A stretch of 64,000 nucleotides of DNA. Origin: Gammaproteobacteria bacterium (lineage in GTDB: Bacteria > Pseudomonadota > Gammaproteobacteria > GCA-001735895). This document shows, in pieces, positions 29,291 through 33,715 of the stretch. Positions within the stretch are counted from its first letter, which is position 1. Every line of letters begins with the position of its first letter. The notes beneath the pieces were generated by a model. It saw only the letters and a list, made by a program, of their open reading frames with translations, was not told the origin of the DNA and searched no databases. A program made the position numbers and the translations under genes. The DNA is taken from contig JAHEKJ010000007.1 of the NCBI GenBank assembly GCA_024638385.1, positions 1 through 64,000 on the forward strand. The letters are read 5' to 3'.

Positions 29291-29824
29291 ATGATGTCAT
29301 TCATGCAAGGCCTGTTGATTCCATGGCTTGAGAGTCTCAAGCATTACGCGTACATGTGCCTGTTACTCTCGAGTCCCGAGCGCCTGCCCTACGCTCCGCA
29401 AGCGACGCTGCTGACGATCTTCGTCTACTTTGCCGTCGGCCTGCTGCTGATCGACGCGCAGCAGGGCGCGGCCGCGATCGGCGGGCAGATCCTGCTCGAG
29501 ATTTCGATGCTCGGAGTGATGGCCTACATCGGACTAAACCTGAAGGGCCTGCTGCCGCGCTGGCAGCAAACCTTCTCGGCGCTGGTCGGCATCAATCTCG
29601 TCATCACCGCGGTGTCGATCCCGCTGCGCAGCGTCCTCGACATCGACAGCAGCGAGCCGAACCGTCCGCTGCTGTACCTGACGCTGTTGCTGCTGGTCTG
29701 GAACCTCGCGGTGGTCTCGCTGATATTCCGCCGCGCCTTCGAAATTTCGGTGCAGCTATCGGCTATGATTGCTTTCAGCTATTTCGTCGTCTACCAAATC
29801 GTCAGCGTCTGGTTCTACACGTGA
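29291..29824 (+). CDS. Four-helix membrane protein of unknown function upstream of mpl
   Basis: A 177-residue inner-membrane protein with about four to five helices ([73 protein letters not shown]). Starts at 29291, 29294 and 29303 are possible; GGAAG lies 5 nt before the first. Its TGA is shared with the GTG start of mpl (GTGA), so translation is coupled. No family is recognised; it may serve cell-wall recycling or simply ride on the operon. Confidence 0.7.
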
Positions 29825-31164
29825 AGGTCTACATTCTCGGCATCTGCGGCACTTTCATGGCCGGCCTCGCGCTGATCGCGCGCGAACTCGGTCACGCGGT
29901 CGAAGGCTCGGACGCGAAGGTTTACCCGCCGATGAGTACGCAACTCGCCGACGCCGGCATTCGCGTGCACGAGGGCTATGACGCCGCCAGCCTGCCCGAT
30001 GATTGCGACCTGTTCGTCGTCGGCAACGCGATCACCCGCGGCAACTCCCAGTTCGAGGCCATCCTCGAGCGGGGCTGGCGCTATACCTCCGGCCCGCAAT
30101 GGCTACATGAGCAGGTCTTGCACGACCGCTGGGTGCTCGCCGTCGCCGGCACCCACGGCAAGACCACGACCAGCAGCATGCTCGCGTGGATCCTCGAATA
30201 CGCCGGGCTCGAGCCGGGATTCCTGATCGGCGGCCGGCCCGCCAACTTCGCCGCGTCGGCGCGGCTCGGCAAGCAACCGTTTTTCGTCATCGAAGCCGAC
30301 GAGTACGATTCGGCTTTGTTCGACAAGCGTTCGAAGTTTGTCCACTACCACCCGCGCACGCTGATCCTGAACAACCTCGAATTCGATCACGCCGACATCT
30401 TCGACGATCTCGACGCGATAAAACGCCAGTTCCATCACCTCGTGCGCACGCTGCCGGCAAGCGCGCAGATCGTCGTCAACGCCGACGACCCGGCGCTGCG
30501 CGAGGTTATCGAGATGGGCTGCTGGAGCGAACTGTATCGTCTGTCGGCGCGCGGCGACGATGCCGACGCCCGGCTCGACGCCGATGCCGGCCTGCAACTG
30601 CGCGGCTCCGCACAAGTCCACCGCATCGAGCTCGCGCAACCCGGCGAATTCAATCGCGTGAACGCGGCCGCCGCGATCATCGCCGCGCGCCATGCCGGCG
30701 TCGAGGTCGAGACCTCGCTTGCGGCGCTGACCGAATTCGCCGGCGTGCGCCGGCGCCAGGAACTCATCGCCGAGATCGGCGGCGTGCGCGTGATCGACGA
30801 TTTCGCCCACCATCCGACCGCGATCGCGCTGACCCTCGAGGCACTCAGGCCGATCACCGAGGGCCGCCTGATCGCGGTCGTCGACATTCGCTCGAACACG
30901 ATGAAGATGGGCGCGCACGCGGAGCAACTCGGTCGGTCGCTGGCCGCCGCCGACCTGGTGTTACTGTGCGAAACGCCCGGAATCGCGTGGGATATCGCGA
31001 AAATGGCGCAAACTGCGCCTACAATAGTAGAGGTAAAAGCCGATACGCAGCAGATCGTCGATCATCTGTCGCAGCACTGTCAGACCGGAGATCAAATCGT
31101 TATCATGAGCAACGGCGGCTTCGACAATATTCATCAACGCCTCGTGCAAGCGTTGGCAGGTTAG
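29821..31164 (+). CDS. mpl: UDP-N-acetylmuramate:L-alanyl-gamma-D-glutamyl-meso-diaminopimelate ligase
   Basis: Mur-family ligase that reattaches the recycled tripeptide to UDP-MurNAc in the cytosol. It has 447 residues from the GTG at 29821 ([24 protein letters not shown]), the usual length. The ATP site is VAGTHGKTTTSSMLAWILE, followed by IEADEYDSALFDKRSKFVHY, NNLEFDHADIF and DDFAHHPTAIALTLEALR. It is downstream of a coupled membrane protein and 9 bp before the kinase gene. Confidence 0.95.
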   Translation: MKVYILGICGTFMAGLALIARELGHAVEGSDAKVYPPMSTQLADAGIRVHEGYDAASLPDDCDLFVVGNAITRGNSQFEAILERGWRYTSGPQWLHEQVLHDRWVLAVAGTHGKTTTSSMLAWILEYAGLEPGFLIGGRPANFAASARLGKQPFFVIEADEYDSALFDKRSKFVHYHPRTLILNNLEFDHADIFDDLDAIKRQFHHLVRTLPASAQIVVNADDPALREVIEMGCWSELYRLSARGDDADARLDADAGLQLRGSAQVHRIELAQPGEFNRVNAAAAIIAARHAGVEVETSLAALTEFAGVRRRQELIAEIGGVRVIDDFAHHPTAIALTLEALRPITEGRLIAVVDIRSNTMKMGAHAEQLGRSLAAADLVLLCETPGIAWDIAKMAQTAPTIVEVKADTQQIVDHLSQHCQTGDQIVIMSNGGFDNIHQRLVQALAG

Positions 31165-31173
31165 CATCCGAGC

Positions 31174-32487
31174 ATGTCAGAACCTTCGCACCGATTGACC
31201 AAGATCGCCAAGTACGAGATCAAGCGACGCCTCGGCCGCGGCGCGATGGGCGTCGTCTACGAGGCTTTCGATCCGTTCGTCCAGCGCACGGTTGCGATCA
31301 AGGTCGCGCACTCGGCCGGCGACCTGGATCCGGCGACGCGGCAGAAGCTGCGCGAAGCCTTTTTCGCCGAAGTCTACAGCGCCGGGCGCATGCACCACCC
31401 GTCGGTCGTCAGCGTCTACGACGCCGGCCAGGAAGACGACCTGAACTACATCGTCATGGAATTCGTCGACGGCGTGACGCTGCAGGAATACGTCACCGGC
31501 GGCAAGACGCTCAAGCCCGGCCAGGTCGTCGACGTGATCTACCAGTGCGCCAAGGGCCTCGACTACGTGCATCGCGAGGGCATCATCCACCGCGACCTGA
31601 AGCCCGGCAATATCATGTTGAGCAACGAGGGCGAGGTCAAGATCATGGATTTCAGCATCGCCCATGTCGACGTCGGTTTCGAGGGCCACGACACCGAGGT
31701 CCAGGGGTCGCCGATGTACATGCCGCCGGAACAGTTGACCGAGGAAAAGCGCCTGGTCGCGCAGTCCGATATCTATTCGCTCGGCGCGGTCATGTACGCG
31801 CTGCTCGCGCGGCGCACGCCGTACAAGGCGTCGAGCCTCGAGTCGCTGATCTACAAGATCACCAACATCGATCCGGAACCGGTCACCCAGGTCAATCCCG
31901 AAGTCCCGGCGCATATCGCCGGCATCGTCGAAAAGGCGATGCAGAAAATCATCTACGACCGCTACGAGTCCGCCTACCTGCTGGCCAAGGACCTGTCGAC
32001 CGCCTTCGGCCGCCTGCGCGGCGTCGGCGAGCGCATCGACATGCAGGAAAAATGGAAGACGCTGCGCTACCTGGCGTTCTTCAAGGACTTCAGCGACGAC
32101 GAGATCACCGAGGTCGTCAACGCCAGCGAATGGAAGGATTTCGAGAAGGGCGACACCATTGTCACCGAGGGCGAGCAGGAAACCGCGTTCTACATCATCG
32201 CCAAGGGCGGCGTCGAGGTGGTCAAGGACGGCCGGATCGTCGGCATGATGAAACAGGGCGACTGTTTCGGCGAGATCGCGTTCCTCACCCAGCAACCGCG
32301 CAACGCGACCATCGTCGCGCGCACCGACGTGTCGCTGATGAGCGTCAGCAACTCGCTGATGGAGCAGGCGTCGACCGAAACCCAGCTGCGCTACTACCGC
32401 ATCTTCCTCGAGAACCTGATCGCGCGCCTGTCGCAGGCGACCGACAAGCTGGTCGAAGCCGAGAAAGCCATCTCGTCCGGCACATGA
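31174..32487 (+). CDS. Ser/Thr protein kinase fused to a cyclic-nucleotide-binding domain
   Basis: A 437-residue cytosolic protein. The Hanks-type kinase domain (14-275) has the G-loop GRGAMG (21-26), Lys43 (VAIK), catalytic HRDLKPGN (139-146), then D159-F-S161 instead of DFG, and MPPE and SDIYSLG. The magnesium-binding Asp is kept. The C-terminal cNMP domain (about 295-400) has GDTIVTEGEQETAFYIIAKG and the phosphate cassette FGEIAFLTQQPRNATI with Arg376. There is no transmembrane helix. The arrangement is reminiscent of eukaryotic PKG with the order reversed. It is co-transcribed with mpl and ubiX. Confidence 0.9.
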   Translation: MSEPSHRLTKIAKYEIKRRLGRGAMGVVYEAFDPFVQRTVAIKVAHSAGDLDPATRQKLREAFFAEVYSAGRMHHPSVVSVYDAGQEDDLNYIVMEFVDGVTLQEYVTGGKTLKPGQVVDVIYQCAKGLDYVHREGIIHRDLKPGNIMLSNEGEVKIMDFSIAHVDVGFEGHDTEVQGSPMYMPPEQLTEEKRLVAQSDIYSLGAVMYALLARRTPYKASSLESLIYKITNIDPEPVTQVNPEVPAHIAGIVEKAMQKIIYDRYESAYLLAKDLSTAFGRLRGVGERIDMQEKWKTLRYLAFFKDFSDDEITEVVNASEWKDFEKGDTIVTEGEQETAFYIIAKGGVEVVKDGRIVGMMKQGDCFGEIAFLTQQPRNATIVARTDVSLMSVSNSLMEQASTETQLRYYRIFLENLIARLSQATDKLVEAEKAISSGT

Positions 32488-33101
32488 AACCGGCAACCGT
32501 CACGCTGGCGATGACCGGCGCCTCGGGCGCGCCCTACGCGCTGCGCCTGTTCGAATGCCTGCTGCGCGACGGCATTCGCGTGCAGTTCATCACGTCGCAG
32601 CCGGGGCAGATCGTGCTCGGCATGGAAACCGATCTCAAACTCACCGGTGCGCCGCAAAAGATGCGCCAGCGGCTGGCCGCGCACTTCGACGCGAAACCGG
32701 AGCTCGTCGAGGTATACGCGAAAGACCAGTGGACCGCGCCGCCGGCCAGCGGCTCGTCGGTCGCCGACGCGATGGTGGTCTGCCCGTGCAGCATGGGCAG
32801 CCTCGCCGCGATCGCGGCCGGTACCAGTGAAAATCTCATTCACCGCGCCGCCGACGTCGCGATCAAGGAGCACAAGCCGTTGATCCTGGTGCCCCGGGAA
32901 ACGCCTTTCTCGGCGATCCATCTCGACAACATGCTGCGCCTCGCGCGTCTCGGCGTCGTGATCCTGCCGCCGAACCCGGGGTTCTACCACGGCGTGAGCT
33001 CGGTCGCCGAGCTCGTCGATTTCGTCGTCGCGCGCATCCTCGACCGGCTCGGGATCGACAACGACCTTTCGCCCCGCTGGGGATCCGACGACCGGGAATG
33101 A
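32484..33101 (+). CDS. ubiX: Flavin prenyltransferase UbiX
   Basis: Prenylates FMN to the cofactor of the UbiD decarboxylase, needed for ubiquinone. It has 205 residues: VTLAMTGASGAPYALRLFEC (Rossmann-like FMN site), VVCPCSMGSLAAIAAG with the active-site Ser, PLILVPRETPFSAIHLDNM and a final helix. It starts at an ATGA overlap with the kinase stop and overlaps the LON-like gene in the same way. The coupling to a protein kinase is unexpected. Confidence 0.95.
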   Translation: MKPATVTLAMTGASGAPYALRLFECLLRDGIRVQFITSQPGQIVLGMETDLKLTGAPQKMRQRLAAHFDAKPELVEVYAKDQWTAPPASGSSVADAMVVCPCSMGSLAAIAAGTSENLIHRAADVAIKEHKPLILVPRETPFSAIHLDNMLRLARLGVVILPPNPGFYHGVSSVAELVDFVVARILDRLGIDNDLSPRWGSDDRE

Positions 33102-33715
33102 CGCCGGCGATGGCCGCAGAGATTCCACTGTTCCCGCTCAAGACCGTGCTGCTGCCCGGCAACACGCTGGTACTCAAGATATTCGAACCGCGCTACCTCG
33201 ACATGGTCGCCGCCTGCCTGCGCGAAGACAGCGAGTTCGGCGTCGTGCTGATTTACCGGGGCGACGAAACCGGCGTCGGCGCCGACATCTACTCGATCGG
33301 CACGACGGCCCGCATTCGCGACTGGGAAAACCGCGCCGACGGAATCCTGTCGATTACCGCCGAGAGCATCGACCGGTTCGAGATCCGCTCGACGCGAACC
33401 GAGACCAACGGCTTGCTGCGCGCCGACATCGCGCGACTCGACGACGACGCCGCCGGCGCGGAGATACCGGACCAGTTTTACTACATGCGCGAACTGCTCG
33501 AGCACATCAGCGCGCAGGCCGGCAAGCCGGCCGATGACGCCCGCTCGTTCTCCGCTACCCTCTTTCGGCTGATCTACCTGCTACCGCTGGAAACCAATCT
33601 CAAGCAGCGCCTGCTCGAGATCGACGACGCCAACGACCGCGCGATGATCCTGCATGCCGAACTGATCCGCCTCGGCGTGATTCAATACGTCAAGCCCGAG
33701 GCGGCCAACGAGTAG
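33098..33715 (+). CDS. LON substrate-binding domain protein
   Basis: A 205-residue stand-alone LON N-terminal domain (PF02190 type): IPLFPLKTVLLPGNTLVLKIFEPRYLDMVAACL at the start, then the FGVV beta strand and a helical tail ending LGVIQYVKP. It has no ATPase or protease part. Such proteins are common in gammaproteobacteria next to mpl/ubiX-type genes, with unknown function, and may bind unfolded segments. It overlaps ubiX by ATGA. Confidence 0.85.
   Translation: MTPAMAAEIPLFPLKTVLLPGNTLVLKIFEPRYLDMVAACLREDSEFGVVLIYRGDETGVGADIYSIGTTARIRDWENRADGILSITAESIDRFEIRSTRTETNGLLRADIARLDDDAAGAEIPDQFYYMRELLEHISAQAGKPADDARSFSATLFRLIYLLPLETNLKQRLLEIDDANDRAMILHAELIRLGVIQYVKPEAANE

Follow-up and report, generated by a model that had tools for sequence, protein, structure and literature searches.

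A widespread bacterial Ser/Thr kinase family with a C-terminal cyclic-nucleotide-binding domain, a recurrent DFS motif and a branch that keeps to mpl

One gene of the window (the whole stretch of 64,000 nucleotides that was analysed) encodes a Ser/Thr kinase joined to a C-terminal cyclic-nucleotide-binding (cNMP) domain, and the kinase-cNMP family to which it belongs turns out to be widespread and uncharacterised. The DFG motif of the kinase is DFS in most members, and one branch of the family is found beside mpl. We give about an even chance to the reading that the protein is an active cytosolic kinase which its DFS motif pre-sets and a 3',5'-cyclic nucleotide, most probably cAMP, gates; that Mpl is a substrate is a guess. 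Neither the occurrence of DFS across the family nor the orthologous group linked to mpl appears to have been described in the open literature, in which we found no characterised bacterial kinase-cNMP protein and no biochemistry for any member; the pairing of a kinase with a cNMP domain is mentioned in Planctomycetota (PMC11032199). The features discussed are collected in Table 1.

Table 1. Features of the kinase-cNMP gene and its operon, in window positions
Feature	Position	Strand	Basis
mpl, UDP-N-acetylmuramate:L-Ala-gamma-D-Glu-meso-DAP ligase (peptidoglycan recycling)	29824..31164	+	TIGR01081, 600.8 bits (cut-off 388.7)
Ser/Thr kinase with C-terminal cNMP-binding domain, 437 aa	31174..32487	+	ORF, domain matches, AlphaFold2 model
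Hanks kinase domain, residues 14-258	31213..31947	+	PF00069; fold match PknB
D159-F160-S161, DFS replacing DFG	31648..31656	+	sequence
cNMP-binding domain core, residues 321-398	32134..32367	+	PF00027
Phosphate-binding cassette, residues 364-381, including E367 and R376	32263..32316	+	family alignment
C-terminal helix, residues 401-435, which aligns with the C-helix of CRP	32374..32478	+	AlphaFold2 model, CRP alignment
ubiX	32484..33101	+	TIGR00421, 195.4 bits (cut-off 108.9)
LON substrate-binding domain protein, next in operon	33098..33715	+	PF02190, E 1e-29

The Pfam match to the kinase domain (E 2e-48) is far above the cut-off, and that to the cNMP domain reaches 71.6 bits against a cut-off of 27.5 (E 5e-20). 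An AlphaFold2 model of the protein has a pLDDT of 91 and a pTM of 0.87; its kinase part finds its best fold match in PknB of M. tuberculosis (5u94, TM 0.90 on target), while the nearest solved relatives of the cNMP domain by sequence are the CNB domains of PKG and PKA-R. The sequence-only reading had described a cytosolic Hanks kinase with a C-terminal cNMP-binding cassette, resembling a reversed cGMP- or cAMP-dependent kinase, and a cytosolic kinase of PknB type followed by a PKA-R/PKG-like cNMP domain is upheld. The residues that it had singled out, namely K43, the HRD motif and its retained Asp, the D159-F-S161 motif and Arg376, are likewise as described. The kinase carries K43, E66, H139-R140-D141, N146, D159 and an APE-like PPE186, and departs from the Hanks pattern at the DFG glycine, where S161 is found. 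With the catalytic Lys, the HRD Asp and the DFG Asp all present, it does not classify as a pseudokinase. The domain matching PF00027 has both the fold and the GE...R phosphate cassette, here FGEIAFLTQQPRNATI, which includes R376. A role as a defence kinase was ruled out, the PADLOC matches (PD-T4-6, Mad6) spanning the kinase domain only.

Each of the known systems to which the protein can be compared shares only some of its features. PknB-type Hanks kinases have the same kinase fold and motifs, but the window kinase lacks PASTA domains, carries a cNMP domain and has DFS for DFG; on the PASTA-kinase model NF033483 it scores 264.8 bits, under the cut-off of 450 and over the kinase part only. PKG is likewise a single chain that has both a kinase and a cNMP part. 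Its domain order is reversed relative to the window protein, however, with N-terminal CNB domains in tandem (two or more) and an AGC kinase, whereas the window protein has a single C-terminal CNB and a PknB-like kinase, and the fusion is very probably independent of PKG. CRP and the window protein share the GE...R cassette and a long C-helix that carries Thr/Ser in or close to the adenine-contact places, but CRP has a DNA-binding domain where the window protein has the kinase, and in sequence the C-terminal region of the window protein stands closer to eukaryotic CNBs than to CRP. TbDYRK resembles the window kinase in having Ser at the DFG glycine; it is a trypanosome DYRK (CMGC) kinase, and so of another kinase group, for which a cNMP domain is not described in that source (PMC7136023).

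Some match to the window kinase was found in 55 of 57 relatives, and full-length orthologues with 58-90% identity extend across the genus and family of the window, so that the ORF is not a chance one. In a profile search about 56 of 274 sampled genomes of the class, as counted from the result table, gave a match over both domains with E < 1e-100. The fusion had been thought rare in bacteria on the strength of the sequence, which is wrong for this class. Named relatives include Azonexus, Azoarcus, Gallionellaceae, Woeseiaceae, Rhodocyclaceae, Chromatiales and two Nitrospirota MAGs. At one locus (L039:9196-10394) a second kinase-cNMP copy is spread over two ORFs, probably through a frameshift or sequencing error.

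The motif reads DFS in 71 of 121 distinct full-length members, DFG in 47, DYG in two and DLG in one. When mapped on a tree of 91 diverse rows, built with the motif column excluded, DFS needs six changes, of which the starred branches force at least three. All 14 rows from the window's own family have it, as does the whole of a 20-row clade made up of other families, and this clade pattern, together with the 71 members, rules out a chance or unique change. K43, E66, H139-R140-D141, N146 and D159 are invariant over the same 91 rows. The other kinases encoded at the same loci have DFG in 80 of 81 readable cases, the lone DFS belonging to an incomplete member of the kinase-cNMP family; among these 81, then, no intact kinase outside the family has DFS. 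The window's own genome has 12 kinase matches, eight of them readable, and seven of these are DFG, the window kinase alone being DFS. A histidine three residues after the DFS serine (H164, 31663-31665) is present in 34 of 46 DFS rows and in one of 40 DFG rows. Counted by rows, S161 covaries strongly with H164 and A45, but with only four independent pairs the association is not significant. The Ser/Thr content of the activation loop shows no clear difference between DFS and DFG rows (means 2.0 and 2.4), and was dropped as an explanation of DFS.

Serine at this position has been studied in other kinases. LRRK2 G2019S has a kcat of 322 per min compared with 140 per min, and the activity of PKA is raised by G186S (PMC6660771). 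TbDYRK carries DFS naturally; the S856G mutation, which gives DFG, leaves 13% activity, and the serine is thought to pre-set the kinase (PMC7136023). The glycine of DFG is not obligatory for an active kinase. DFS is a conserved trait of the family; given these precedents and the invariant catalytic residues, it would seem to be a setting of an active kinase and not decay.

Turning to the cNMP domain, we looked among the homologues for loss of the phosphate-cassette residues, by which the sequence-only reading had proposed to judge itself, and found them largely retained, so that the reading was not refuted on this count: E367 is kept in 121 of 121 aligned members (100%) and R376 in 115 of 121 (95%), and every aligned member from the window's genus has both. 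Three of the six members that have lost the arginine are within the window's own family (His in L028, Leu in L029 and L030). In members lacking Arg376 the usual mode of cyclic-nucleotide binding may be absent, and these three are possible natural ligand-blind variants.

In an alignment with the true CRPs of the relatives, the places of CRP Thr127 and Ser128, which contact adenine, are Thr/Ser in 65 and 90 of the 121 members respectively; the window protein has A422 and T423, with Ala at the Thr127 place. The residue following the cassette arginine, N377 in the window, is highly variable across members (T, S, N, Q, V or A), and ligand choice is therefore not settled by that residue. Class III cyclase domains number 15 in the window's own genome, which also has a CRP above NCBI's cut-off; no class I adenylate cyclase was found in it or in the genus. 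Because of the CRP-like Thr/Ser places, the class III cyclases and the CRP, cAMP is the likeliest ligand.

The kinase starts 9 nt downstream of the mpl stop (which ends at 31164), and at 32484-32487 an ATGA contains both its stop and the start of ubiX, in agreement with the placement close to mpl and the translational coupling to ubiX that had been read from the sequence. A chalcone-isomerase-like gene comes after the LON-domain gene. A search for conserved neighbours upheld the link to mpl and widened it, since the kinase adjoins mpl, always downstream, in nine families of the class (the window's family, f128, f87, f49, f94, f7, f157, f146 and f52). On a tree made after the removal of three very long rows, the 23 mpl-linked rows lie on one side of a branch with support of 99, opposite 65 others, and this clade holds both DFS and DFG members. 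The link to quinones that had also been proposed fails. In 39 of 114 genomes of the class mpl is directly beside ubiX without the kinase, so that the pair is independent of it, and in genomes that have ubiX on a different contig (G191, G180 and G086), or in which ubiX was not found (G041 and G128), mpl still has the kinase beside it. A quinone tie was therefore rejected, and the adjacency to mpl where ubiX has moved or is missing favours a tie to Mpl over one to UbiX. The neighbourhood as such is no proof that Mpl is the substrate. In M. tuberculosis PknA and PknB are interaction partners of the Mur ligases MurC-F (PMC3605390).

Several loci depart from this arrangement. The kinase is absent from the gap in four genomes with mpl-ubiX gaps of 477-1776 nt. 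A congener that is 99% complete (G014, L275:516-2785) is without the kinase and has mpl and ubiX 281 nt apart, which shows the kinase to be dispensable. The small membrane-protein-like gene that lies ahead of mpl in the window has a weak relative in G292 (L276:1689-3871); there a kinase-cNMP gene comes after it, and mpl is absent between the two, as if lost from the locus. By eye, a bacteriohemerythrin-like ORF seems to sit between mpl and ubiX in G122 (L273:1483-1893), and appears to be a different insertion at the place of the kinase. Other families have a small gene set with a DFS kinase-cNMP gene on either side, in a conserved same-strand layout (L194:5372-11434, also L033, L189, L191 and L193). 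This set is mostly the glucose-6-phosphate isomerase gene (pgi) and/or that of a two-CBS-domain protein, and glucokinase- and trehalose-like genes lie near the pair in L033. The content of these loci suggests that this branch may act in the control of sugar metabolism.

In the mechanism that we propose, a cyclic nucleotide, probably cAMP, is predicted to bind the kinase's own C-terminal cNMP domain, and the long C-terminal helix and linker might then shift, or might pair two chains as in CRP. Ser161 would keep its motif in the 'in' state; the kinase would thereby be pre-set, with on/off control transferred to the cNMP domain and the long helix at its C-terminal end. The pre-set kinase would then phosphorylate its targets. 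More tentatively, in the mpl-linked branch these might include Mpl, or something that works with it in recycling peptidoglycan, which would tie wall recycling to cAMP.

Alternatively, the kinase may be gated by a cyclic nucleotide and have no special tie to Mpl, sitting in the mpl-ubiX operon for steady expression while its targets are unrelated. The kinase-free mpl-ubiX pairs and the congener that keeps both genes in place would fit this, as would the family branches located elsewhere, such as the tandem pairs around pgi and the CBS-domain protein; set against it is the persistence of the kinase downstream of mpl in all nine families, even where ubiX has gone. We regard this as a possibility to be taken seriously, though on the doubtful side. 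It is unlikely, in our judgement, that the cNMP domain binds a ligand other than a cyclic nucleotide, or nothing at all, and serves for dimerisation: the near-universal retention of E367 and R376 argues against it, while the members of the window's family without the arginine argue for it, as does the PKA of Trypanosoma, which is reported to work independently of cAMP and to be switched on by nucleoside analogues (PMC6440977).

A weak or dead kinase, acting as a nucleotide-sensing scaffold in which DFS marks decay, would accord with the near-invariance of the DFG glycine in the other bacterial kinases sampled. Against it, every catalytic residue is invariant, several clades have kept DFS over long times, and a serine there makes LRRK2 and PKA more active while TbDYRK requires it; we consider such a pseudokinase very improbable. 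Returning to the active, cAMP-gated kinase, its furthest extension would make the family a bacterial counterpart of PKG that evolution has repeatedly pre-set by a Gly-to-Ser change in DFG, and of which one old lineage phosphorylates Mpl, coupling cAMP to peptidoglycan recycling. That the whole of this holds seems to us decidedly unlikely.

Cyclic-nucleotide-dependent phosphorylation is a hallmark of eukaryotes, and the known actions of cAMP in bacteria run mainly by way of transcription factors. The natural DFG and DFS members, found side by side, offer a ready test of a change of the LRRK2 G2019S type in a kinase. If the members of the family are kinases with a built-in cNMP sensor, they would provide a direct bacterial parallel to the cyclic-nucleotide-dependent phosphorylation of eukaryotes.
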